A stretch of DNA of 64,000 bases from positions 2,607,501-2,671,500 of the forward strand of contig NZ_CP062698.1 of the NCBI RefSeq assembly GCF_018389385.1, written 5' to 3'. This document shows, in pieces, positions 24,773 through 37,997 of this stretch (position 1 is its first letter; every line of letters starts with the position of its first letter). The notes beneath the pieces were generated by a model. The model was not told the origin of the DNA. It made no database searches and was given only the letters and a program-made list of their open reading frames with translations. The DNA comes from Anthocerotibacter panamensis C109. Lineage in GTDB: Bacteria > Cyanobacteriota > Cyanobacteriia > Gloeobacterales > Anthocerotibacteraceae. Both the position numbers and the translations under genes were made by a program.

Positions 24773-27099
24773 GTCGCTTCTGAGATAGGAAGTGGAAGTA
24801 ATGGAAACATACGTAGCTGATTTCACTTTGTCCATTAAACACTGAAGCGTCGCTTCTGAGATAGGAAGTGGAAGTAATGGAAACTCCGCATAGCGGCTAA
24901 GCCCACCGCCTTTCCCTGATGTCGCTTCTGAGATAGGAAGTGGAAGTAATGGAAACCTACTTTAAGACGAAGAACGTTAAGAATTTCGGTCTTGTCGCTT
25001 CTGAGATAGGAAGTGGAAGTAATGGAAACTCTCGGAACCTTAAATTGAACGGCTTTATCGTAGTCCCAGTCGCTTCTGAGATAGGAAGTGGAAGTAATGG
25101 AAACGTTTGCGGTCTGTGGCGGCAGAAACTAATACACTAATGTCGCTTCTGAGATAGGAAGTGGAAGTAATGGAAACACCGCCTTCCGGCACACCAAACG
25201 ACTCGGTTAGAGATTCGTGTCGCTTCTGAGATAGGAAGTGGAAGTAATGGAAACCCCTGCCACGTGCAAAACTATAAAATCTTTTCTGGTGTCGCTTCTG
25301 AGATAGGAAGTGGAAGTAATGGAAACTAGGTGCAAAAATTACCGCTCAAGACGCTTGAGGAAGTCGCTTCTGAGATAGGAAGTGGAAGTAATGGAAACCG
25401 AGGTTATCCCGGCTGCCACAAGCGGCACAGGGGGTCGCTTCTGAGATAGGAAGTGGAAGTAATGGAAACCGAGGTTATCCCGGCTGCCACAAGCGGCACA
25501 GGGGGTCGCTTCTGAGATAGGAAGTGGAAGTAATGGAAACGGGCTAAAAGGCTGTATCATGGTTATTACCTCTTTGGGGTCGCTTCTGAGATAGGAAGTG
25601 GAAGTAATGGAAACGGGCTAAAAGGCTGTATCATGGTTATTACCTCTTTGGGGTCGCTTCTGAGATAGGAAGTGGAAGTAATGGAAACATCGGCATTGCC
25701 TTGATTATCTAAAACCACTTCCATGTCGCTTCTGAGATAGGAAGTGGAAGTAATGGAAACAGCGCTTATAATCTCGTACCCATCGCTGATGCTAGTGTCG
25801 CTTCTGAGATAGGAAGTGGAAGTAATGGAAACCGAGGTTATCCCGGCTGCCACAAGCGGCACAGGGGGTCGCTTCTGAGATAGGAAGTGGAAGTAATGGA
25901 AATGCTATCTGGGCTTGGGAGCCCGTCAGAGCAGCAAGTCCCGTCGCTTCTGAGATAGGAAGTGGAAGTAATGGAAACCACGCAAAGGCATCGTAGTTTG
26001 ATTGGGGGTAAAAGCTTAAGTCGCTTCTGAGATAGGAAGTGGAAGTAATGGAAACTACAGTTGTTTTAGCCCGCGATGCCCGCAGGTATAAGTAAGTCGC
26101 TTCTGAGATAGGAAGTGGAAGTAATGGAAACACACTCTGGCTTTAGCCCTGTTCTTAGACCCTTTGACCCGTCGTCGCTTCTGAGATAGGAAGTGGAAGT
26201 AATGGAAACGAGCCCACAAATCCAGGCGTTCATGGATTTGCCTTGTGTCGCTTCTGAGATAGGAAGTGGAAGTAATGGAAACTCTAGCCCGTGTAAGGAC
26301 ACGTTTTTGCGGTCAACAACAGCGTCGCTTCTGAGATAGGAAGTGGAAGTAATGGAAACACTAGGAGGGGATCAGCAGGTTTCGCATGATGCGCGACACC
26401 TGGTCGCTTCTGAGATAGGAAGTGGAAGTAATGGAAACTTACCGCGACCATCTTGAAAAAGCGCTAGAACAAGCTTTGTCGCTTCTGAGATAGGAAGTGG
26501 AAGTAATGGAAACTCAAGTTCAAATTTCATTTCTTTTCCCTTAACCGTGTCGCTTCTGAGATAGGAAGTGGAAGTAATGGAAACTGATAGACATCTTTCA
26601 CTTTGATGCTATCACCATGACTGTCGCTTCTGAGATAGGAAGTGGAAGTAATGGAAACTCAAGTTCAAATTTCATTTCTTTTCCCTTAACCGTGTCGCTT
26701 CTGAGATAGGAAGTGGAAGTAATGGAAACATAATGTGCGGGCGATAAAGTTTGACCAAATCTCCATTTTGTCGCTTCTGAGATAGGAAGTGGAAGTAATG
26801 GAAACTAGCAGCTCTAGCAGCCTTCATCCTCAAAAAAGACGGGTCGCTTCTGAGATAGGAAGTGGAAGTAATGGAAACCGGCATCGGCGATCTCGCCTAC
26901 GAAGATCGTTTCGAAGTCGCTTCTGAGGTAGGAAGTGGAAGTAATGGAAACTAATTTGCTTGCAAATCGCTTCCCGCTGTTCAGGAGTGTCGCTTCTGAG
27001 ATAGAGAATGGAAATCCATCGGTAGAGGCGTAACATGTTGCGTTTCTACTGTTTATGCCGGTTGTCACTTTTGGGATAAAGAGTGAAATCAATAGAAAT
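24773..27099 (+). CRISPR. CRISPR array, 32 repeat units of 36 bp
   Basis: The first repeat is 24773-24808: GTCGCTTCTGAGATAGGAAG at the 5' side and TGGAAGTAATGGAAAC at the 3' side. Starts recur every 71-79 bp, giving spacers of 35-43 bp. Units 1-29 are identical except unit 16 (25868), which ends AAAT. Unit 30 (26916) has one A-to-G change. Unit 31 (26989) and unit 32 (27064) are decayed and mark the distal end. Duplicated spacers occur after repeats 9, 10 and 15 (one sequence three times), after 11 and 12, and after 24 and 26. The array lies on the same strand as the type III-B genes that follow. Confidence 0.98.
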
Positions 27100-28173: not shown

Positions 28174-31100
28174 ATGACCAACGAAGACAACCAAGCCTAC
28201 TACCGCCGTAAGCTTTTTGCCCTGTTGCATGACCCGCAACTGAAGAGTTTGTATAAAAAAAAAGGAGGAAAAGGTCCATGGGAAAAACTAAAAGTTTTAA
28301 ATCAGCACAAGCATATCAAAAAATGGTGGGATGAAAATGGAATTGAGTCTGACACTATTGGGGCAACATCTGACCGGGTATCTATCGCCAAAGAAGATAA
28401 AATTTACTGCAATGCTCTTCAAGAAGATGGCAAAACCAGTTTAGAAATTCGCCATCCGATCAGCGGTCAGTCCCATCGGTTAATATTTGACGGGTTATTA
28501 AACGAGAATGAATTAAAATCTTTTGAAGAAGAAGGGCTTAAAGATATTTTAGAGTCAGAAAATCCTGAAGAAGTATTTTGGTGGTGCTGGCGCTTTTATC
28601 CCGAAAAAGTTGCTCAAGCCATAGGTAACCAACAATCACTTCTGCTTCCTGCCGAAACTCGTATCCCCGATTGCCCAATTCATAGCCACAACAGCACTGT
28701 ATCCGCAATAGCTGGTGCTTTATTTCCAAAAATCTGGAAATCAGGTAAATCCGAATATCCTTACCTACTTATCTTCACCTTTTCCCCCATCCAAGAGTTT
28801 ATAAAATCCTCGCGTAAGTTCCTTGATTTCTGGGCGGGGTCTTACTTATTGCACTACCTGAGCGCCCATCTCTGTTGGTATGTCGCCAAAAACTATGGCC
28901 CCGATGCTGTGATTACCCCCTCGCTTTGGGGACAGGAGATTATTGATGCGTTTATTCGTGAAGATGAAGAACTTGGTTTAAAAGAGTTTTTACCTCCTGC
29001 AAAGCTAGAATCCCTAACTACCGCCGGATTCCCCAATGTCATCACCGTGCTTGTCTCTGGTGAAGTAGAAGCTAAAAAACTAGGCGAAAAACTAACCCAA
29101 AAACTCAATGAAGAATGGAAGACGATTGGTACTAAAGTCCGGGAAGCTATCAAAAAGAACATCATGGCTGTTGTAACCGAGAAGCTCTGGAATGAGCTAG
29201 CACCGGAATTTGGAGGTAACTCACCTGAAAACCCATCCCGGCGCGAATTCTTGGGTTATCAGCAAGGCGGACAGTGGGAATGGAACAAGCTCTGGGATGC
29301 GCAACTCGAAGGCACCTGGGAACACTACTGGACCGCCGTTCCACTCGGTGATCCAAATCAAGATTTAAGTATAAATCGGGAAAAAGAAAACTACTCTAAC
29401 TGGAAAACGTACCAAAATGAAATCGCTCAAGCCCGTACCGAACTCCCCACACCTGCTGAAGAACGTTCCTTTAACATGATCAACGTTGGTACATGGTGGG
29501 GGAGCCTCCAAGGACGCTTAGGCCAACTGATCCAAGCCGTAAAAAACACCCGCAACTGGGAACTCCCCGTCGCCCCCGGTGAACGCTCCACTATCTCCGG
29601 GCAATACAGCGCCGCCCATCCCCGCCATCTCTATAATGAACGTTTCCGCGAAGGCGGCGGACTCCCCGCCCAATCCATGCGCCTTTTTTGGCGCGTCATG
29701 GCAGAAGCATTCCCCGGACTTTTTAACGGTTCAGAGCGGCTCAACTGCATCGAACTGACCAAACGCATGGCCTGGGTCCATGGCGGAGTTGCGGAATCTT
29801 TGGGTGTAAATGTAACCACAGCAACAGGACAGCCTGACTACGAAGCCCTGATCCGTTTCCCAAACCTTAGTTCCATCGCCGCTGCCCGTTTTGCCTACGA
29901 ACATCCAGAAAAAATCAAAGAGTACTGGGAGGTTCTCAACCGCTCAATACACGCTGAGCTTCCTCGCTACCGTGAGAAGTTTGGTTCCCTGACCCGTCGG
30001 CCCTTTCAAGTTCCCAATGTTGACCAAGCGCTAGGCGATTACAACGGAGTCATGTTCTCTAGCAAATGGTTAGCCGATGACCTGGGAGTTGAAGAATCGC
30101 AGACTCTACGCGAGCTAGTTAGTAGTGCGCACAAAGAAGAAGAATCGCAGACTCTACGCGAGCTAGTTAGTAGTGCGCACAAAGAAATAGATATCAAAGA
30201 CTGGAGTCCCGCAGACTGGTGGGTAATCGTGCTCGGTGATGGCGACAGTATGGGTAGTTATGTCAATGGCAGCCGACTGAAAACCTATGAGCATTACCTT
30301 GCTACCGAAACCTGTGAAAAGTTAAGCGACCGGGGTGGAGATTGGGCTGAATTGCTTAACACCAAAAAACGCATGGGGCCCGCTACCCACGTCGGCCTAA
30401 ACCGCGCCCTATTAGACTTCTCCAACCAACTCGTCCCCTACCTCACCGAAGACCGCTTCTGTGGCAGAGTCGTCTATGCCGGGGGCGATGATGTCATGGC
30501 AGTACTCCCCCTTGAAGATACACCGGAATACTTGCTTTCTCTGCGTGCCGCCTGGAGCGGAGCAGAAGATCCAAAGGGTAAATTCAAAGATGAGGGTGGT
30601 TACTGGGAACCCAAATCGGCCCTAAAGGGACTACCCGACCGACCCCTCTTCACCATGGGCAAGGACGCCACCATGAGCTTGGGGATTATCTTCGCTCACA
30701 AGAGCGTGCCCCTGCCCACAGTTCTAGAAAATCTCTGGGAAGCCGAAAAAGAACGCGCCAAAAAATTAGTGGGCGTTGGCAAAGCCACTGACCCCGGCTT
30801 TATTCCCGCCAAAGATGGCCTCTGTTTCCGCGTCATCTACAGCTCCGGCAACACCCTCGAAGCCCTGATGAAAGGCCACCTTTACCAGGATTGGTGGGAA
30901 TTCATGCAATTGGCAGACAGCGAATTCTCCCCCGTCCTCTACCGCCTCTGTGAAGAACTCCCCCTCCGTTGCGTCGTCACAGGCGACCTAAAGTTATTTC
31001 ATAAAGCTAGCGAAGCCATTCTTGAGCGCCGCGAGAAAAAATTGAGCGACGACCTAAAAAATGCACTGCTTGACTGGATCGACAAATGGGAAAAATGGGC

Positions 31101-31263
31101 CTGGGGAGCCTATTGGAAAGATAAGCTTGACAAGCAACCCCTCGGCGTAAAGCCTGAAGACCTCGCCCAACTCCTGCGCTTTAGCGCCTTCTGGCTCGAC
31201 AAAATGGGCAACCTTACCCAATTTGACCCAAAACCCGCTCATGAACAGCAGGAGGGGACATGA
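28174..31263 (+). CDS. cmr2: Type III-B CRISPR Cas10/Cmr2
   Basis: The 1029-residue large subunit of the Cmr complex keeps LFALLHDP near the N-terminus (remnant HD-like site). A long helical region follows with SPIQEFIKSSRKFLDFWAGS, a Cmr2 hallmark. The first palm motif is VLGDGDSMGSYVNG (about 687-700) and the cyclase motif is AGGDDVMA, with GGDD at 770-773. An intact GGDD predicts cyclic oligoadenylate synthesis on target RNA binding. A perfect 48-bp tandem duplication (30091-30138 and 30139-30186) repeats 16 residues before the first palm motif. The stop overlaps cmr3. Confidence 0.95.
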   Translation: MTNEDNQAYYRRKLFALLHDPQLKSLYKKKGGKGPWEKLKVLNQHKHIKKWWDENGIESDTIGATSDRVSIAKEDKIYCNALQEDGKTSLEIRHPISGQSHRLIFDGLLNENELKSFEEEGLKDILESENPEEVFWWCWRFYPEKVAQAIGNQQSLLLPAETRIPDCPIHSHNSTVSAIAGALFPKIWKSGKSEYPYLLIFTFSPIQEFIKSSRKFLDFWAGSYLLHYLSAHLCWYVAKNYGPDAVITPSLWGQEIIDAFIREDEELGLKEFLPPAKLESLTTAGFPNVITVLVSGEVEAKKLGEKLTQKLNEEWKTIGTKVREAIKKNIMAVVTEKLWNELAPEFGGNSPENPSRREFLGYQQGGQWEWNKLWDAQLEGTWEHYWTAVPLGDPNQDLSINREKENYSNWKTYQNEIAQARTELPTPAEERSFNMINVGTWWGSLQGRLGQLIQAVKNTRNWELPVAPGERSTISGQYSAAHPRHLYNERFREGGGLPAQSMRLFWRVMAEAFPGLFNGSERLNCIELTKRMAWVHGGVAESLGVNVTTATGQPDYEALIRFPNLSSIAAARFAYEHPEKIKEYWEVLNRSIHAELPRYREKFGSLTRRPFQVPNVDQALGDYNGVMFSSKWLADDLGVEESQTLRELVSSAHKEEESQTLRELVSSAHKEIDIKDWSPADWWVIVLGDGDSMGSYVNGSRLKTYEHYLATETCEKLSDRGGDWAELLNTKKRMGPATHVGLNRALLDFSNQLVPYLTEDRFCGRVVYAGGDDVMAVLPLEDTPEYLLSLRAAWSGAEDPKGKFKDEGGYWEPKSALKGLPDRPLFTMGKDATMSLGIIFAHKSVPLPTVLENLWEAEKERAKKLVGVGKATDPGFIPAKDGLCFRVIYSSGNTLEALMKGHLYQDWWEFMQLADSEFSPVLYRLCEELPLRCVVTGDLKLFHKASEAILERREKKLSDDLKNALLDWIDKWEKWAWGAYWKDKLDKQPLGVKPEDLAQLLRFSAFWLDKMGNLTQFDPKPAHEQQEGT

Positions 31264-32390
31264 TGCACTGGCACATCGTCGAACCCCTGGATGTCCTGCT
31301 CTTTCGGGAAGCCAAACCCTTCAGCCCCGGAGCCGGTTCCTGGGCCAAAAGCCTCTTCCCGCCCATGCCCATCACCGTCTTCCAGGCATTGCGCTCTGCC
31401 CTAGAGCAATACACCAATACACAGCAGTCCCAACGTCGAGACCTAGAATTCCTTGGTCCCTTCCTGATTAATGGCGAAGACGACCTCTGGCTGCCCACCC
31501 CCAAAGACCTCCTTGCCGTCAAAACTCGTTCTCCCAGCGAAAAAGAAACCCCCAACGATAACCTCAGTGATAAGTCCAACGATTGGGAATTCACCCATCG
31601 TCTGCTCCCCATCCCCGAACAGCACAAGTACGTCTTTGCCGACGACGACCTCCAGGTAATGGTACCGCCCCAGTTAGCCCCCAACGAGTTCATCTGCGGG
31701 CGACCCGAACCTTGGATCAAAGAAGAAGCCCTAGTCAAATACCTCAAGGGCGACACCTTACAAGAGTCTGACGAGTTTTGTGACAATCCCTGGGGTAGTC
31801 AAGTCCTCCCCCACATCCTGATCCAAGACGACAAACGCCAAGTCGCCGAAGAAGCGGGCTACTTCACCGAAGTCGCCGTGCGCATGAAATCCGGCTGGCG
31901 CTTCGCCTGTGCTCTCAGTGTCCGCTTGCCTCAAACCACCGTCCGTCTAGGAGGAGAGGGTCATCGTGCCTTGGTTTATCACGCTCCCTCCTCTGTAACC
32001 GAGGCTTACCAAGCTCTAGGCCCTTTCGAGAAACGCCCTGACACAGCAAAATTCGCGTACCTGCTCACCCCCGCTCTTGCCGAGGTCAGCTCCGGCGTTT
32101 ACAGCGTTTACCCCAACAACTGGAAAGAGCATCTCAGCGGTTGTGTCAGTGACCGAGCTGTTTTGTGGGGAGGAGTCTCCGCCCTACGGCGTAAAGTTGG
32201 CACAGACCAAACTTCCCCACCAGAATTTGCGCTCCTTCCCCAACGAGCCTACGTTCCCGCCGGGACAGTCTACCGCTTCAAAGGAAAAGGGCCACCAAAT
32301 AACCGGCTTTTGCCCGTTCTGGACACCCCCTGGCTCGATACCCTCCGCTCCCTCAACTACGGCAAGTTACTTTGGAGTACTGAAAAATGA
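31260..32390 (+). CDS. cmr3: Type III-B CRISPR RAMP protein Cmr3
   Basis: The 376-residue protein starts inside the cas10 stop (ATGATG). The opening WHIVEPLDVLLFREAKPFSPGA and FPPMPITVFQALRSAL are the Cmr3 N-terminal RAMP signature, and a glycine-rich RLGGEGHRAL loop lies near residue 225. Cmr3 sits beside Cas10 at the foot of the effector and helps hold the crRNA 5' tag. It ends overlapping cmr4 by four bases (ATGA). Confidence 0.93.
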   Translation: MMHWHIVEPLDVLLFREAKPFSPGAGSWAKSLFPPMPITVFQALRSALEQYTNTQQSQRRDLEFLGPFLINGEDDLWLPTPKDLLAVKTRSPSEKETPNDNLSDKSNDWEFTHRLLPIPEQHKYVFADDDLQVMVPPQLAPNEFICGRPEPWIKEEALVKYLKGDTLQESDEFCDNPWGSQVLPHILIQDDKRQVAEEAGYFTEVAVRMKSGWRFACALSVRLPQTTVRLGGEGHRALVYHAPSSVTEAYQALGPFEKRPDTAKFAYLLTPALAEVSSGVYSVYPNNWKEHLSGCVSDRAVLWGGVSALRRKVGTDQTSPPEFALLPQRAYVPAGTVYRFKGKGPPNNRLLPVLDTPWLDTLRSLNYGKLLWSTEK

Positions 32391-33211
32391 ACCTCTGTTA
32401 CTTATACCTCCTCTCCCCCCTTCACACTGGAGGAACTACCCAAGAAGGAAATTTGCTTGGAATTGCCCGTGAAGTTCATACCGATCTACCTTATGTTCCC
32501 TCCAGCACGCTGCGGGGTCGTCTTCGGGCTTCTACACATAAGGAGCAGGTAAAGACCCTTTGGGGAAATGATATTGATGATGTAATCAAAGGAGGAGATA
32601 GTAACCTCACACAAGGAGCCTTGTGGGTAGGAGATGGTGCTATTCTCTGGTTTCCAATACCCTCTTTGAGCCATGGTGTGGTTTGGATTAGCTCACCTTT
32701 CCTGCTTAAGCGATGGTCAAGAATCACCGGTCAAACTCTAGCCATCCCACCAGTAGGGAGCTTCAGTCACCACAATAATAATCAAGCCCTATATTTGAAG
32801 GATGCTATTATCCAGCCGAACCAGTTACACGCTTGGCGGGAATGGCAGAACTTCCGCACTGCTCATCCTGAGGCAACAACTATTGAAAAAGTCCTTATCC
32901 TAAGTGATCAAGACTGCTCAATTCTGATCCAATCCAGCCTTTGGCGACAGGTCAAGGTAAAACTCAGTGATAAAAAAAATGTCGATAAAAAAAATGTCAA
33001 AAACGGATTTAGGTATGAGGAGGCAATACCACCAGAAACTTTGATGTACTTTCCCTGGGGTACCACAGCCGCCACTAAAAATGGAGCCACTCCAAGCGCT
33101 ACAACGCAATTCCAAAAGCTCATAACTGACCATTCAGCGATCCAGATTGGTGGTCAAGAGAGCCTTGGACGTGGATTCTGTTCAGTGAGCCTGGGAGGTA
33201 ACCATGCTTGA
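32387..33211 (+). CDS. cmr4: Type III-B CRISPR RAMP protein Cmr4
   Basis: The 274-residue backbone subunit opens with CYLYLLSPLHTGG, followed by GIAREVHTDLPYVPSSTLRG, the RAMP loop. It ends with the IGGQESLGRGFCSV glycine loop. Cmr4 repeats along the crRNA, and its loop Asp normally cuts the target RNA at 6-nt steps. Here the loop reads QEGNLLGIARE, and the usual Asp is not evident. It overlaps cmr3 and cmr5 by a few bases. Confidence 0.9.
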   Translation: MNLCYLYLLSPLHTGGTTQEGNLLGIAREVHTDLPYVPSSTLRGRLRASTHKEQVKTLWGNDIDDVIKGGDSNLTQGALWVGDGAILWFPIPSLSHGVVWISSPFLLKRWSRITGQTLAIPPVGSFSHHNNNQALYLKDAIIQPNQLHAWREWQNFRTAHPEATTIEKVLILSDQDCSILIQSSLWRQVKVKLSDKKNVDKKNVKNGFRYEEAIPPETLMYFPWGTTAATKNGATPSATTQFQKLITDHSAIQIGGQESLGRGFCSVSLGGNHA

Positions 33212-33572
33212 TCCGCGTAGCATTAGCCGTCCTGTTTACACTGCCCTCAATACCATTGCTACTCAAGCCGCGAATGATCAGGGTCGGCGAGACGAACAAT
33301 ATGGGCAGGCAGTTGAGCTTTACACTTATCTGGCAACTTGGGGTTTGATTCGCCTAAAAGCAGAAGAAAACGCTTTGGGCCAAGAAGGTAAAAAACAGGT
33401 TGTGCAAAGATTTTTCAGTGTGTTGCAGGAAGTCTCCCACACACAGGGCTTGGCCGAAGCAGGAGGAGTTCAGGTTTTGTTAGGCATGAACTCCTCTCAG
33501 TATTTAGGTCTGACTGGCTTAGGTTTACAGGTTGCGCGGGAATTTGCTTTCTGGGCTGGTGCTATTTACTAG
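33204..33572 (+). CDS. cmr5: Type III-B CRISPR small subunit Cmr5
   Basis: The 122-residue all-helical protein matches Cmr5. It has an N-terminal RSISRPVYTALNTIATQA, central YLATWGLIRLKAEE, and near the C-terminus YLGLTGLGLQVAREFAFW. The small subunit stacks along the Cmr4 backbone and contacts target RNA. It begins eight bases inside the end of cmr4 and is followed nine bases later by the fusion gene. Confidence 0.88.
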   Translation: MLDPRSISRPVYTALNTIATQAANDQGRRDEQYGQAVELYTYLATWGLIRLKAEENALGQEGKKQVVQRFFSVLQEVSHTQGLAEAGGVQVLLGMNSSQYLGLTGLGLQVAREFAFWAGAIY

Positions 33573-33580
33573 GAGGTTAT

Positions 33581-35530
33581 GTGAATCAACGTCCCCAACG
33601 TCAGAATCCACCTGGTAACAATCCTCCAAGGCAGGGAGGAGGTAGACAACAGCCTGCTCCTATACCCGAGCCATCTCCTTGGCTAGAGGGAATTCAGCCT
33701 AACCCAGGTGGATCGGCTAGTTTTGTTGAATATCTCCGCTGGCTCCGACAAAAATCGGGCAGCACTACTATGGATGCAGGAACTCAAGTCCAGCTTTTGA
33801 GTAAATTTGACGGAAATAACTTTAGTACAGCGTTGAACCGACTTACTAATCGAACTAGACTACTAGCGAATCCGCAGCAAGGCCATGTTCACTTTGAAGT
33901 CACCTGCCCTTGGCGTATTCGCGTTGGAGGTACCAAAGGACCAGAATCGATGCTTCTTCCGGCTTTCGATAACCTAGGTATGCCTTACATTCCTAGTAGC
34001 ACCCTGCGGGGAGTAGCACGGGCTATGGCAGTGAAAGAAATCGGCGAAGAAGACGCGAAAAAAATTTTTGGCAGTATTGATGTCAATCAAGGAAGCATGG
34101 GTAAAGTCACTTTTTTAGATGCTTATCCACTGCCAGGAAACAACCATAAAGGTGGTCTCAAGCCTGATATGGCAAATGCTATATGGAAATGGAATGGGAA
34201 TAATCCTCCTACTTATAGCCCAAATCCCAATACATTCCTCTCTCTAGAAAAGCCAACCTTTGTGATTGGCCTGCGTCGTAATGGATGTAGTGATGACGAG
34301 TGGGCTAATGTTCAAAAATGGCTTAAAAATGGCTTGGCTCAGGGCATAGGTTCACAAGTTAATAGCGGCTATGGCTCTTTGGAGGCTGATGGGAGACCAA
34401 AACCAATAAGAGAAGATACGATTCTACAGGTTCCCTTTGAGTTGGAGGGTCAATTGAGCCACGGACGGAAAAGGTTTATTCAATGGAATCTGAATAACCG
34501 TCAGCAATGGCAGATGCGTGGCGCATCTGAGGCCGAAGTTCGCCCAGTAGCTTTCAAAAATATGCTTCGGTACTGGTTCCGATCCCTGGCATTTGGTGTA
34601 CTTCCCCCTCAGCAAGTCCGATTGTTAGAGGTCAAGATCTTTGGAGGAATTGAACCTGCTCCACATACTGGGCTGTTTCGTGTAGAAATCAGGGACGGTA
34701 GGGTAGTAAATGACAACGCACAAAGCTCTCATGATCCCTCTGGGCTAATTACTGGAAACCTGGTTCTGAGGAACTCATCTCAGACTAGGAGTTTGCCAGA
34801 GTATGAAAGAGCTTCACTTCCAAACCTTTTGAAGAACCTTACTTGGTTGATGTTCCATCTTGGAGGGGTTGGGCAAGGAGCAAGGAGACCCTGCTATTCA
34901 CGCCAACGTTCTCCCTGGTATCGAGGTTCAAAGCTATTGCTGACTCAGCCAGATTCTTTCTTTCAAACTCCTGATAACCCTCAAGATTTTGCTTTGCTTT
35001 TTTCAGATCGAAGTCGGCACTTCTTTGAAGCTCTGGCCTTATTTTCTAATCATAGGATCAGATTAAATCAACTCAATGCAGTAACTCAAGTTTCTCCTTC
35101 TACTTGGGCTGAGGCATTTGATGTAAGCTCTCGTCTTTACATTGTTTCAGGTGAAGGTCTAGGAACACCTAATAAGTCTCATGCTCTAGATATACTGCAT
35201 GACTTCTTCCATCAAATTACAGATCCGATTGCCGACTTAAGACAACGAGCAAAAAATTCAAAGAACCAGCAAGAAAAAAGCGAACTAGATCAACAAGTAT
35301 CAACGCATTTAACTCGGGGGAAGAATCTCTGTGGTGGTACAGAAACTGATTATCCTACTAGTGGAGATAGCCGTAACGCTATACCTTCTCCTGTTTGGAT
35401 CGCTGATTACCAAGACTTCCAGTTAGTCCTAGTGTTTGGAGCAACAAAAGATCCTCGCTCAACTTATTTAAAAGTATTGTTAGAAAATTCTGAAAGGTCA
35501 ATCAAGCTCTGGCCCTTCCCCAATCCATGA
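33581..35530 (+). CDS. Fused Cmr6-Cmr1 RAMP protein of the type III-B complex
   Basis: The 649-residue protein starts at a GTG after TAGGAGG. A Pro/Gln-rich tail (1-45) precedes a Cmr6-like part (about 80-275) with MPYIPSSTLRGVARAMA and the GIGSQVNSGYGSLE glycine loop. A Cmr1-like part follows (about 285-649) with EVRPVAFKNMLRYWFRSLAF and LEVKIFGGIEP, the Cmr1 N-terminal pattern, and a later HLGGVGQGARRPCYSR loop. No separate cmr1 or cmr6 gene is present. Both subunits normally cap the 3' end of the crRNA filament, so a fusion is structurally reasonable. It overlaps the transposase-like gene by ATGA. Confidence 0.88.
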   Translation: MNQRPQRQNPPGNNPPRQGGGRQQPAPIPEPSPWLEGIQPNPGGSASFVEYLRWLRQKSGSTTMDAGTQVQLLSKFDGNNFSTALNRLTNRTRLLANPQQGHVHFEVTCPWRIRVGGTKGPESMLLPAFDNLGMPYIPSSTLRGVARAMAVKEIGEEDAKKIFGSIDVNQGSMGKVTFLDAYPLPGNNHKGGLKPDMANAIWKWNGNNPPTYSPNPNTFLSLEKPTFVIGLRRNGCSDDEWANVQKWLKNGLAQGIGSQVNSGYGSLEADGRPKPIREDTILQVPFELEGQLSHGRKRFIQWNLNNRQQWQMRGASEAEVRPVAFKNMLRYWFRSLAFGVLPPQQVRLLEVKIFGGIEPAPHTGLFRVEIRDGRVVNDNAQSSHDPSGLITGNLVLRNSSQTRSLPEYERASLPNLLKNLTWLMFHLGGVGQGARRPCYSRQRSPWYRGSKLLLTQPDSFFQTPDNPQDFALLFSDRSRHFFEALALFSNHRIRLNQLNAVTQVSPSTWAEAFDVSSRLYIVSGEGLGTPNKSHALDILHDFFHQITDPIADLRQRAKNSKNQQEKSELDQQVSTHLTRGKNLCGGTETDYPTSGDSRNAIPSPVWIADYQDFQLVLVFGATKDPRSTYLKVLLENSERSIKLWPFPNP

Positions 35531-36180
35531 CCTACGACCCCACCCGCCACCACCGCCGCTCTATCCGGCTCAAAGGCTACGACTACACCCAGCCCGGAGC
35601 TTACTTTGTGACGATGGTAACTAAAGACCGGGCACCAATCCTCTCGTACATCATCCAGGGTACCGTCCTGCTCAGCCCCATCGGAGAAATCGTCCACCGC
35701 TGCTGGTATCATCTACCCAAGCACTTCCCCAATATCCAAGTCACACCCTTCGTCGTCATGCCCGACCACATCCACGGCATCATCACTATCAATCTAGATC
35801 GTCCCACTCCCTCTATCCCCGCCCCGCCTACCCCAGAGGAGCGTAAGGGTAATGCATTCGCCGAGGACATGGGCGGGCAGGAGTCAAGCTTCGCAGCGGA
35901 TGCATTACCCCGACAGCTATCTCCATCTCGACAGCCATCTCCATCTCGACAGCGACCCGACCTCCACGGCAGCACACCTGGATCCCTCGCCGCCATCCTC
36001 CAAAACTACAAATCCATCACCACCCGCAAAGCCAACCAACACAAACAAACCCCCGGCACTCACCTATGGCAACGGGACTACTATGAGCGGATTATCCGCG
36101 ATACCCAGGAATTAGCACGGATTGAGAACTATATCCATGACAATCCCCGCCAATGGCAAGAGCAGAAAGAGATACACTAA
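35527..36180 (+). CDS. RAYT-type (REP-associated Y1/HUH) transposase
   Basis: The 217-residue protein starts RHHRRSIRLKGYDYTQPGAY and carries the HUH-type motif MPDHIHGII. It also has a C-terminal WQRDYYERIIRD segment that supplies the catalytic Tyr. The layout is that of single-strand transposases of the TnpA-REP group. A low-complexity insert between the motifs includes an 18-bp tandem repeat (units from 35911, 35929 and the start of a third at 35947). Its ATG overlaps the fusion gene's TGA, so it may be translated with the CRISPR operon. Confidence 0.88.
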   Translation: MTYDPTRHHRRSIRLKGYDYTQPGAYFVTMVTKDRAPILSYIIQGTVLLSPIGEIVHRCWYHLPKHFPNIQVTPFVVMPDHIHGIITINLDRPTPSIPAPPTPEERKGNAFAEDMGGQESSFAADALPRQLSPSRQPSPSRQRPDLHGSTPGSLAAILQNYKSITTRKANQHKQTPGTHLWQRDYYERIIRDTQELARIENYIHDNPRQWQEQKEIH

Positions 36181-36461: not shown

Positions 36462-37997
36462 ATGGCGATCTTAGTTGCTAATTTGGGGACTTCTGATTTG
36501 TCTGTAAAAGTAGAAGGATATGACTACTTCTTCCCAGCAAAATTTAACCGCAGCGAACCCAATGATCCTGAAGATTCACTGTCGCAGGAGGAAGAGGAAT
36601 TCTGGCGCAAGGATGGGACAACTAGCTACATTAGCTCGTTTTTATGCCCTGACTTAAAAGTCTCAACTTCCATAAATGAAAGAGAAAAAATTAATTACTC
36701 ATTTCGGGAGCTAACCGAAAAACTTTTTCAGGTTTATGAACAAAATCCTGAGAAATGGCACCCATTAATCAAACCTTGCCGTATTTGGGGAGTGATTAAA
36801 ACTGCCGTCGATAAATTTAACGTAAAAGATGTTTATTTGGTTCTCACTGATCAGCCAGAAAACGAGGAAAAAGGAAGACTTGATGATACCATTCACTTAT
36901 TTAATATTTTGCAAAAGTGGCTAGTCTATGAAAATATATATGTCAACCTGCATCCAGAAATCATTAAATTCAAAGCTGTTGATGATGATCGGTTGTTTCA
37001 GTATTACTACAGTCTTTTATCCAAACCAGACATTAATGAACCTATTTTAGCCTCTGTGAAAGGTGGAACTCCTCAAATGAAAACAGCCTTGAAAGCTCAA
37101 GCTATTTCACTGGGATTTTCAAAGCTGCTCTTTATAGATCCTAAACTTAAAATTAGTTCTTTTCTCCGTGGGCTCCCTTCAGAAACCGAGATAACTTCAT
37201 TTTGGAAGCATGCACGAACACAGAAGTATCAGAGCATTAAGCTACTCCTAGAACGTTGGGATTTTGGTGGAGCACTTGTGATTTTAAATGACTGGAGGAA
37301 AAACTTAAAATACCTGAATGAACATATTAATGATTCCAATTTATTTAATTCCAATAATACTGCAGCAAGTATTACTAAAACCCTTGAAATTGCTTGTAAC
37401 TGTTTAGATCTCAATGTGAACCGTGATACCAAATTGCCTCAAATTATATCCACTCAACTAAAAAGTCAAATTTCATCTTATGATAGGCTACTTAATATAT
37501 ATACTCAATGTCAAATGTATTGGGAATTAGATCATGTTGCCAATTTTCTTTATCGCTTATCTACATTTTGTGAGCTTATTTTACACCAAGTCATGCATCG
37601 AAATAATGGAAGATTTAACGATGACTCTGGAAATCGTTTTTCAAAACGAAATGAAATCACTTCTCTTATAAAAGATAGAAACCGAGAAGATTGGAATCAA
37701 ATATTACAGTTTTTAGAAAAATTAGATTTTTGGGTGGATGTACGTAATCAGTTGGTTCATTCCGCTCAGGGAGTTTCAAAAAAGAGTATGCAGGAGCTAC
37801 ACGACAGCCAACCTACAAGAGCATGTCCTCCCAGAGATATACTAAGTGTGATGAAACAAATCCTTCAAGCTAGGAACGGATGGCTACTTAAAAAACCAGA
37901 ATACCTGCATAGATTTGTTGATTTAGAACGCTATTACATCTATTCGGATGTCCGTGAATGGATCATCAATAAACTAATGACAGAAGGCTTAGAATGA
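36462..37997 (+). CDS. CARF-HEPN ribonuclease, Csm6/Csx1-like, divergent
   Basis: The 511-residue protein starts MAILVANLGTSDLSV, the opening strand of CARF domains. It then has SVKGGTPQMKTAL (Gly201, Gly202, Thr203), the CARF ligand-loop pattern. A helical region follows, and near the C-terminus lies WVDVRNQLVHSA, an Rx4H HEPN catalytic motif (Arg428, His433). Expected role: binding cyclic oligoadenylate made by Cas10 and cutting RNA without sequence choice. The gene looks more A+T-rich than neighbours. AGGAGG precedes the ATG. Overall it does not look like a close relative of well-known Csm6 proteins. Confidence 0.82.
   Translation: MAILVANLGTSDLSVKVEGYDYFFPAKFNRSEPNDPEDSLSQEEEEFWRKDGTTSYISSFLCPDLKVSTSINEREKINYSFRELTEKLFQVYEQNPEKWHPLIKPCRIWGVIKTAVDKFNVKDVYLVLTDQPENEEKGRLDDTIHLFNILQKWLVYENIYVNLHPEIIKFKAVDDDRLFQYYYSLLSKPDINEPILASVKGGTPQMKTALKAQAISLGFSKLLFIDPKLKISSFLRGLPSETEITSFWKHARTQKYQSIKLLLERWDFGGALVILNDWRKNLKYLNEHINDSNLFNSNNTAASITKTLEIACNCLDLNVNRDTKLPQIISTQLKSQISSYDRLLNIYTQCQMYWELDHVANFLYRLSTFCELILHQVMHRNNGRFNDDSGNRFSKRNEITSLIKDRNREDWNQILQFLEKLDFWVDVRNQLVHSAQGVSKKSMQELHDSQPTRACPPRDILSVMKQILQARNGWLLKKPEYLHRFVDLERYYIYSDVREWIINKLMTEGLE

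Follow-up and report, generated by a model that had tools for sequence, protein, structure and literature searches.

A CARF-HEPN protein with Csm6 architecture as the probable effector of a type III-B (Cmr) system in Anthocerotibacter panamensis

Csm6 proteins are defined as effectors activated by cA6, and Csx1 proteins as effectors activated by cA4 (PMC11229360). In S. thermophilus Csm6', the 6H domain is built from three helices per monomer; binding of cA6 causes a rotation of the CARF domains that is relayed by 6H to the HEPN domains, which open (PMC10702470). The same paper describes an extra HEPN segment of ~40 residues that is present in some Csm6 proteins and absent from others. In E. 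italicus Csm6 (EiCsm6), the HEPN site consists of R372, N373 and H377, alanine at N10, T114 or Q116 lowers the activity that depends on cA6, T11 takes part in cleaving the ring, and the protein cleaves its own ring with a threonine and a glutamine in motif II (PMC7101355). Intrinsic ring-nuclease activity has been described for Csm6/Csx1 effectors (PMC12409355), and the sequence GTS, as motif I, is a ring-nuclease signature (PMC10018336). K137 of the cA4-activated Thermus thermophilus Csm6 is essential for cA4 binding (PMC10897365). In the cyanobacterium Synechocystis PCC 6803, SyCsx1 is a cA4-activated RNase and SyCsm6 a ring nuclease (PMC9676260).

The window analyzed here is a stretch of 64,000 nucleotides from the genome of Anthocerotibacter panamensis C109, a single contig of 4,187,797 bases. 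It contains a type III-B (Cmr) operon that adjoins a CRISPR array and whose last gene encodes a CARF-HEPN protein, referred to below as the effector (Table 1). The protein is very probably the effector arm of this Cmr system and a member of a catalogued CARF-HEPN family with Csm6 architecture. Its reading frame starts with ATG, is intact over 511 codons and contains both the GGTPQM loop (residues 201-206) and the RNQLVH motif (residues 428-433) from which a preliminary description had predicted an RNase activated by cyclic oligoadenylate (cOA).

Table 1. Positions of the CRISPR array, the genes of the operon and the domains of the effector, numbered from the first letter of the window
Feature	Position	Strand	Basis
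CRISPR array, 36-nt repeat in ~30 copies, upstream of operon	24773..26957 (end approximate)	.	28 copies exact
Cas10/Cmr2, 1029 aa, putative cOA source	28174..31263	+	PDLC02052 1222.7 bits; HD residue 19, GGDD 770
Cmr3	31260..32390	+	Pfam PF09700 E 1.7e-38
Cmr4	32387..33211	+	TIGR02580 E 2.4e-32, above cut-off
Probable Cmr5 (small subunit)	33204..33572	+	location; tblastn matches at the corresponding site of other Cmr operons
Cmr6-Cmr1 fusion RAMP protein, 649 aa	33581..35530	+	Cmr6 ~100-269, weak Cmr1 ~312-436
REP-associated tyrosine transposase gene, 217 aa, between Cmr6-1 and effector	35527-36180		
CARF-HEPN effector, 511 aa, Csm6-type architecture	36462..37997	+	PADLOC PDLC01808, AF2 model, Csm6 fold
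CARF domain, residues 1-247; GTS 9-11, KGGTPQM 200-206	36462..37202	+	Crn1/Can2/Card1/Csm6 CARF fold matches, motif conservation
Three-helix linker, residues 248-315, probably Csm6 6H domain	37203..37406	+	AF2 helices; 6H assigned from helix count and fold
HEPN domain, ~342-511, R428-N429-x3-H433	37485..37994	+	motif 30/30, Csm6 fold matches; start estimated

The Cas10 of the window keeps its GGDD cyclase and HD motifs. Together with the CARF-HEPN protein this makes the cOA circuit proposed earlier the natural reading of the locus. The probable Cmr5 had no match in Pfam or NCBIfam. It is also observed that the Cas10 gene carries a perfect in-frame tandem duplication of 48 bp (30091-30186).

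The family of the effector was assigned by its match to the PADLOC profile PDLC01808 (CARF1--CARF_HEPN), with 484.5 bits and an E-value of 1.3e-145; the best stretch spans residues 1-383 and, with a second stretch, covers both the CARF and the HEPN parts. The PADLOC Csx1 profile (PDLC01509) gave 71.5 bits. The NCBIfam csm6 model (TIGR02672) gave 30.9 bits against a curated cut-off of 150, and the protein is therefore not filed as a TIGR02672 Csm6. A Pfam search of the effector found no family above cut-off. Searches of PDB sequences, using the whole effector, two pieces of it or a profile built from 16 sequences, returned no CARF or HEPN chain and no Csm6 or Csx1; two weak chains were found (E 1.8, endonuclease III). 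The connection to Csm6 therefore rests on the fold.

The identification as a CARF-HEPN protein in the preliminary description is borne out by the profile match, by the CARF and HEPN domains of the predicted model and by conserved motifs. Its further suggestion, that sequence and size set the protein apart from the familiar Csm6 and Csx1, stands in one respect: the Pfam and PDB searches are silent and the csm6 score lies below its cut-off. On the other hand, a dedicated PADLOC profile exists for the protein, and with 511 residues it is the shortest of 30 aligned members (the others have 522-723 aa) instead of being enlarged. Its shortness comes from the HEPN part, where 25 of the 30 members have 36-67 additional residues between helices, the remaining five being short there; in this it differs from most of its own family. 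The effector is a further member of a catalogued family, and the idea of an unfamiliar protein, with the novelty it would have implied, is not supported. Among the papers returned by literature searches on cyanobacterial CARF, HEPN and Cmr proteins, none was recognized as a study of this family. Many cyanobacterial Cmr operons keep the branch, and the sequence searches brought up no relative of solved structure.

In a sample of 386 genomes of the phylum, 25 have matches to PDLC01808 at E ≤ 1e-10, the effector's own genome included, some of them solely through the CARF part of shorter Csx1-like cousins. Single-protein scans of the collections genome_contigs and viral_contigs with the effector gave zero relatives. 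A profile scan gave 32 loci in genome_contigs, all cyanobacterial by titles or tree labels, and zero loci in viral_contigs. By tblastn, at least one Cmr homologue is present in 28 of the 32 loci and a Cas10 match in 25; no Cmr homologue was found on the locus DNA examined for L037, L047, L048 and L058. In a plasmid search with the effector, the Synechocystis matches were all weak and lay in PCC 7338 and 7339 (23% over 47%). Three alignments were made. A1 has 16 rows, drawn from the loci of the PDLC01808 survey of the phylum, and omits L004, L008 and L009, which are near L007, as well as the shorter Csx1-like L020-L026 and L031. A2 and A3 contain the effector and 29 of the 32 loci; the three omitted are L058, of 176 aa, and two with an interrupted frame, L041 (394 aa) and L055 (454 aa). 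PDLC01808 matches all 30 of these aligned proteins. In one Oscillatoriales contig (L032, 9898-20726) the effector family is present twice.

The AF2 model of the effector has a mean pLDDT of 89.4 and a pTM of 0.82, and shows the predicted Rossmann-like CARF fold at residues 1-247. Fold comparisons cover the candidates proposed by Foldseek, and families outside that list could also match. Among these candidates, the closest fold is that of S. thermophilus Csm6' (8pcw; Z 18.2, rmsd 4.8 over 330 residues), followed by EiCsm6 (6tug; Z 17.2, rmsd 4.2 over 348 residues), both over the whole length. The Csm6 proteins of S. mutans and S. epidermidis superpose on effector residues 250-506 and 244-505, respectively, and the cA4-bound structure of Thermus Csm6 gives Z 13.3 against the model. 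Can2, Card1 and Sso2081 (Crn1) match the CARF domain with Z 10.6-12.5 and rmsd 1.6-2.7. A Csm6-2-type fusion, with CARF-HEPN twice, was considered and rejected, as the AF2 model has one CARF and one HEPN. Csm6' and EiCsm6, both cA6-activated and self-limiting, share with the effector the order of CARF, three-helix linker and HEPN. They differ from it in being III-A proteins and in using N10 and T11 where motif I of the effector is GTS, and they are too distant for detection by PDB sequence search.

Between the two domains lies the long helical middle noted in the preliminary description, with helices at residues 248-264, 268-288 and 292-315 in the AF2 model. Its function had been called unknown; the three helices resemble the 6H domain, so the middle has a known counterpart, and by helix count and fold match residues 248-315 are most likely the Csm6 6H linker, followed by HEPN. 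A new activation feature, which had also been considered, finds no support in a full-length fold that is that of Csm6.

In the alignment of 30 members, G9, T10, S11, K200, G201, G202, T203, R428, N429 and H433 are invariant, so that these motifs are not due to chance; the last three residues supply the R-X4-6-H pattern of HEPN, as R428-N429-x3-H433, in every member. Since GTS is both invariant and a published ring-nuclease signature, self-limitation is plausible, and the effector would likely clear its own ring slowly through this motif. The self-limiting feature suggested earlier is therefore plausible and would not be new, the activity being already known for Csm6/Csx1. The lysine of motif II (K106 in Crn1, K137 in Thermus Csm6) is missing, its place being taken by P204 in the effector and by proline in 23 of the 30 members, so that ring cleavage is perhaps weak or absent. 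Thermus Csm6 shares with the effector GTS as motif I, the HEPN domain and the overall fold, and differs from it in motif II. The profile comparison with Thermus Csm6, in which K137 is aligned to P204, is weak overall (E 0.11) and has a clear GT register.

As for the residues used by EiCsm6, position 203 is threonine in all 30 members and position 205 glutamine in 25; by spacing, T203 and Q205 would correspond to T114 and Q116. The effector thus appears to keep the threonine and glutamine of motif II, in addition to RN-x3-H. Because P204 replaces a lysine needed for cA4, and a threonine and a glutamine used with cA6 are kept, cA6 is weakly favored, and cA6 or cA5 may be placed slightly ahead of cA4 as the ligand. 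Motif II of this cyanobacterial branch suggests a ligand other than cA4. SyCsx1, a cyanobacterial CARF-HEPN protein as well, differs from the effector in its DxTHG motif and its III-D locus (PMC9676260).

From the computed family, fold, motif conservation and operon linkage we infer dimerization, RNase activity, ligand and self-limitation: the effector is most likely a self-limiting, cOA-activated RNase dimer. Pairing of the Cmr complex with invader RNA would induce the Cas10 palm to make cyclic oligoadenylate. One ring would be bound across the CARF dimer by GTS 9-11 and KGGTPQ 200-205, and the resulting rotation of the CARF domains would reach the HEPN dimer by way of the three linker helices; there, R428, N429 and H433 would cut single-stranded RNA unspecifically. 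Slow cleavage of the bound ring by the GTS motif would then switch the enzyme off.

The genome contains two other type III loci. A second III-B operon (L069:6104-13080) also closes with a CARF-HEPN gene, a different one that lies ~43 kb upstream of the effector. It encodes a short Cas10 of 536 aa, which begins near the Cmr2_N domain and is without the long N-terminal part, and a RAMP protein (532 aa) that resembles Cmr6. The CARF-HEPN protein of this operon (L069:11485-13080; PDLC01508 Csx1) resembles the effector in closing a III-B operon and in its CARF domain, which is related by hhalign (E 3e-8), but its best profile is that of another family. The product of L069:17119-19125, near Cas1, combines a kinase-like AAA_33 domain with a C-terminal part that resembles WYL/WCX. 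The third locus (L071:5361-14678) was called by eye from RAMP-like and Cas10-like ORFs. It includes a CARF protein of 372 aa (L071:8731-9849). Over 80% of its length this protein is 33% identical to the product of a Synechocystis 6803 plasmid site; the site carries the annotation 'hypothetical protein', and we infer it to be SyCsm6. The L071 CARF protein has a weak match, under cut-off, to NF040951 (CRISPR ring nuclease), and it could be a ring nuclease. No match to Csx3 (TIGR02579) or Csx16 (TIGR02620) was found in the genome, and control genomes were likewise silent, so that absence is not established by this search.

The ligand and the means of shut-off are where a different account of the effector has most in its favor. 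The protein could sense cA4, as most CARF-HEPN (Csx1) proteins do, and be shut off by a separate ring nuclease, for example the L071 CARF protein acting in trans. The PADLOC Csx1 profile matches all 30 aligned members, whereas none of the Csm6 profiles matches more than 13; no signal is more common than cA4 (PMC12409355); in Synechocystis, SyCsx1 responds to cA4 and SyCsm6 is a ring nuclease; and the genome has its own candidate in L071. These points are opposed by a fold nearer to the cA6-type Csm6 proteins (Z 17-18) than to Thermus Csm6, by the proline at the position of K137, and by the invariance of GTS. We rate this account at somewhat under even chances. Uncoupling within the operon itself is a separate matter. 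The transposase gene begins just before Cmr6-1 stops, the two overlapping at ATGA, and with this gene in between, co-transcription of the effector with the cas genes is uncertain; promoter-like sites in the stretch are not above chance level. An effector gene that is decaying, or that dropped out of the circuit after the transposase gene had inserted, would fit these observations. It is nevertheless very improbable, given the intact frame, the retention of binding and catalytic motifs, and a ribosome-binding-like AGGAGG directly 5' of the start.

Returning to the proposed self-limiting effector of the Cmr system, a broader extension of it can be offered tentatively and is rather unlikely to hold in full: a cyanobacteria-wide clade of III-B effectors may sense cA6 (or cA5) in place of cA4 and clear it through GTS, with the second III-B operon carrying a different CARF-HEPN branch. 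If so, the two Cmr systems of this genome could rely on different alarm molecules or have one in common.

Three relatives, from Richelia, Cuspidothrix and Calothrix (L059:10001-12157, L063:10001-12169 and L057:8670-10811), have ~120 extra residues directly before the KGGT strand of CARF; in alignment A1, an insert of this kind is also seen in L018. Pfam S1 matches the insert in the three relatives with E 1e-3 to 4e-3, under cut-off, and ribosomal S1 models match it with E-values down to 4e-8. A literature search for S1 domains in connection with CARF and type III CRISPR found no paper. A putative S1 RNA-binding domain within a CARF sensor would be unusual, more so than the effector itself, and these relatives may merit separate study. 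The predicted structure of the L059 protein shows a confident CARF-HEPN body, with pLDDT <50 over most of residues 236-310 in the insert. L059, L063 and L057 form one tree group with a support of 100/100.
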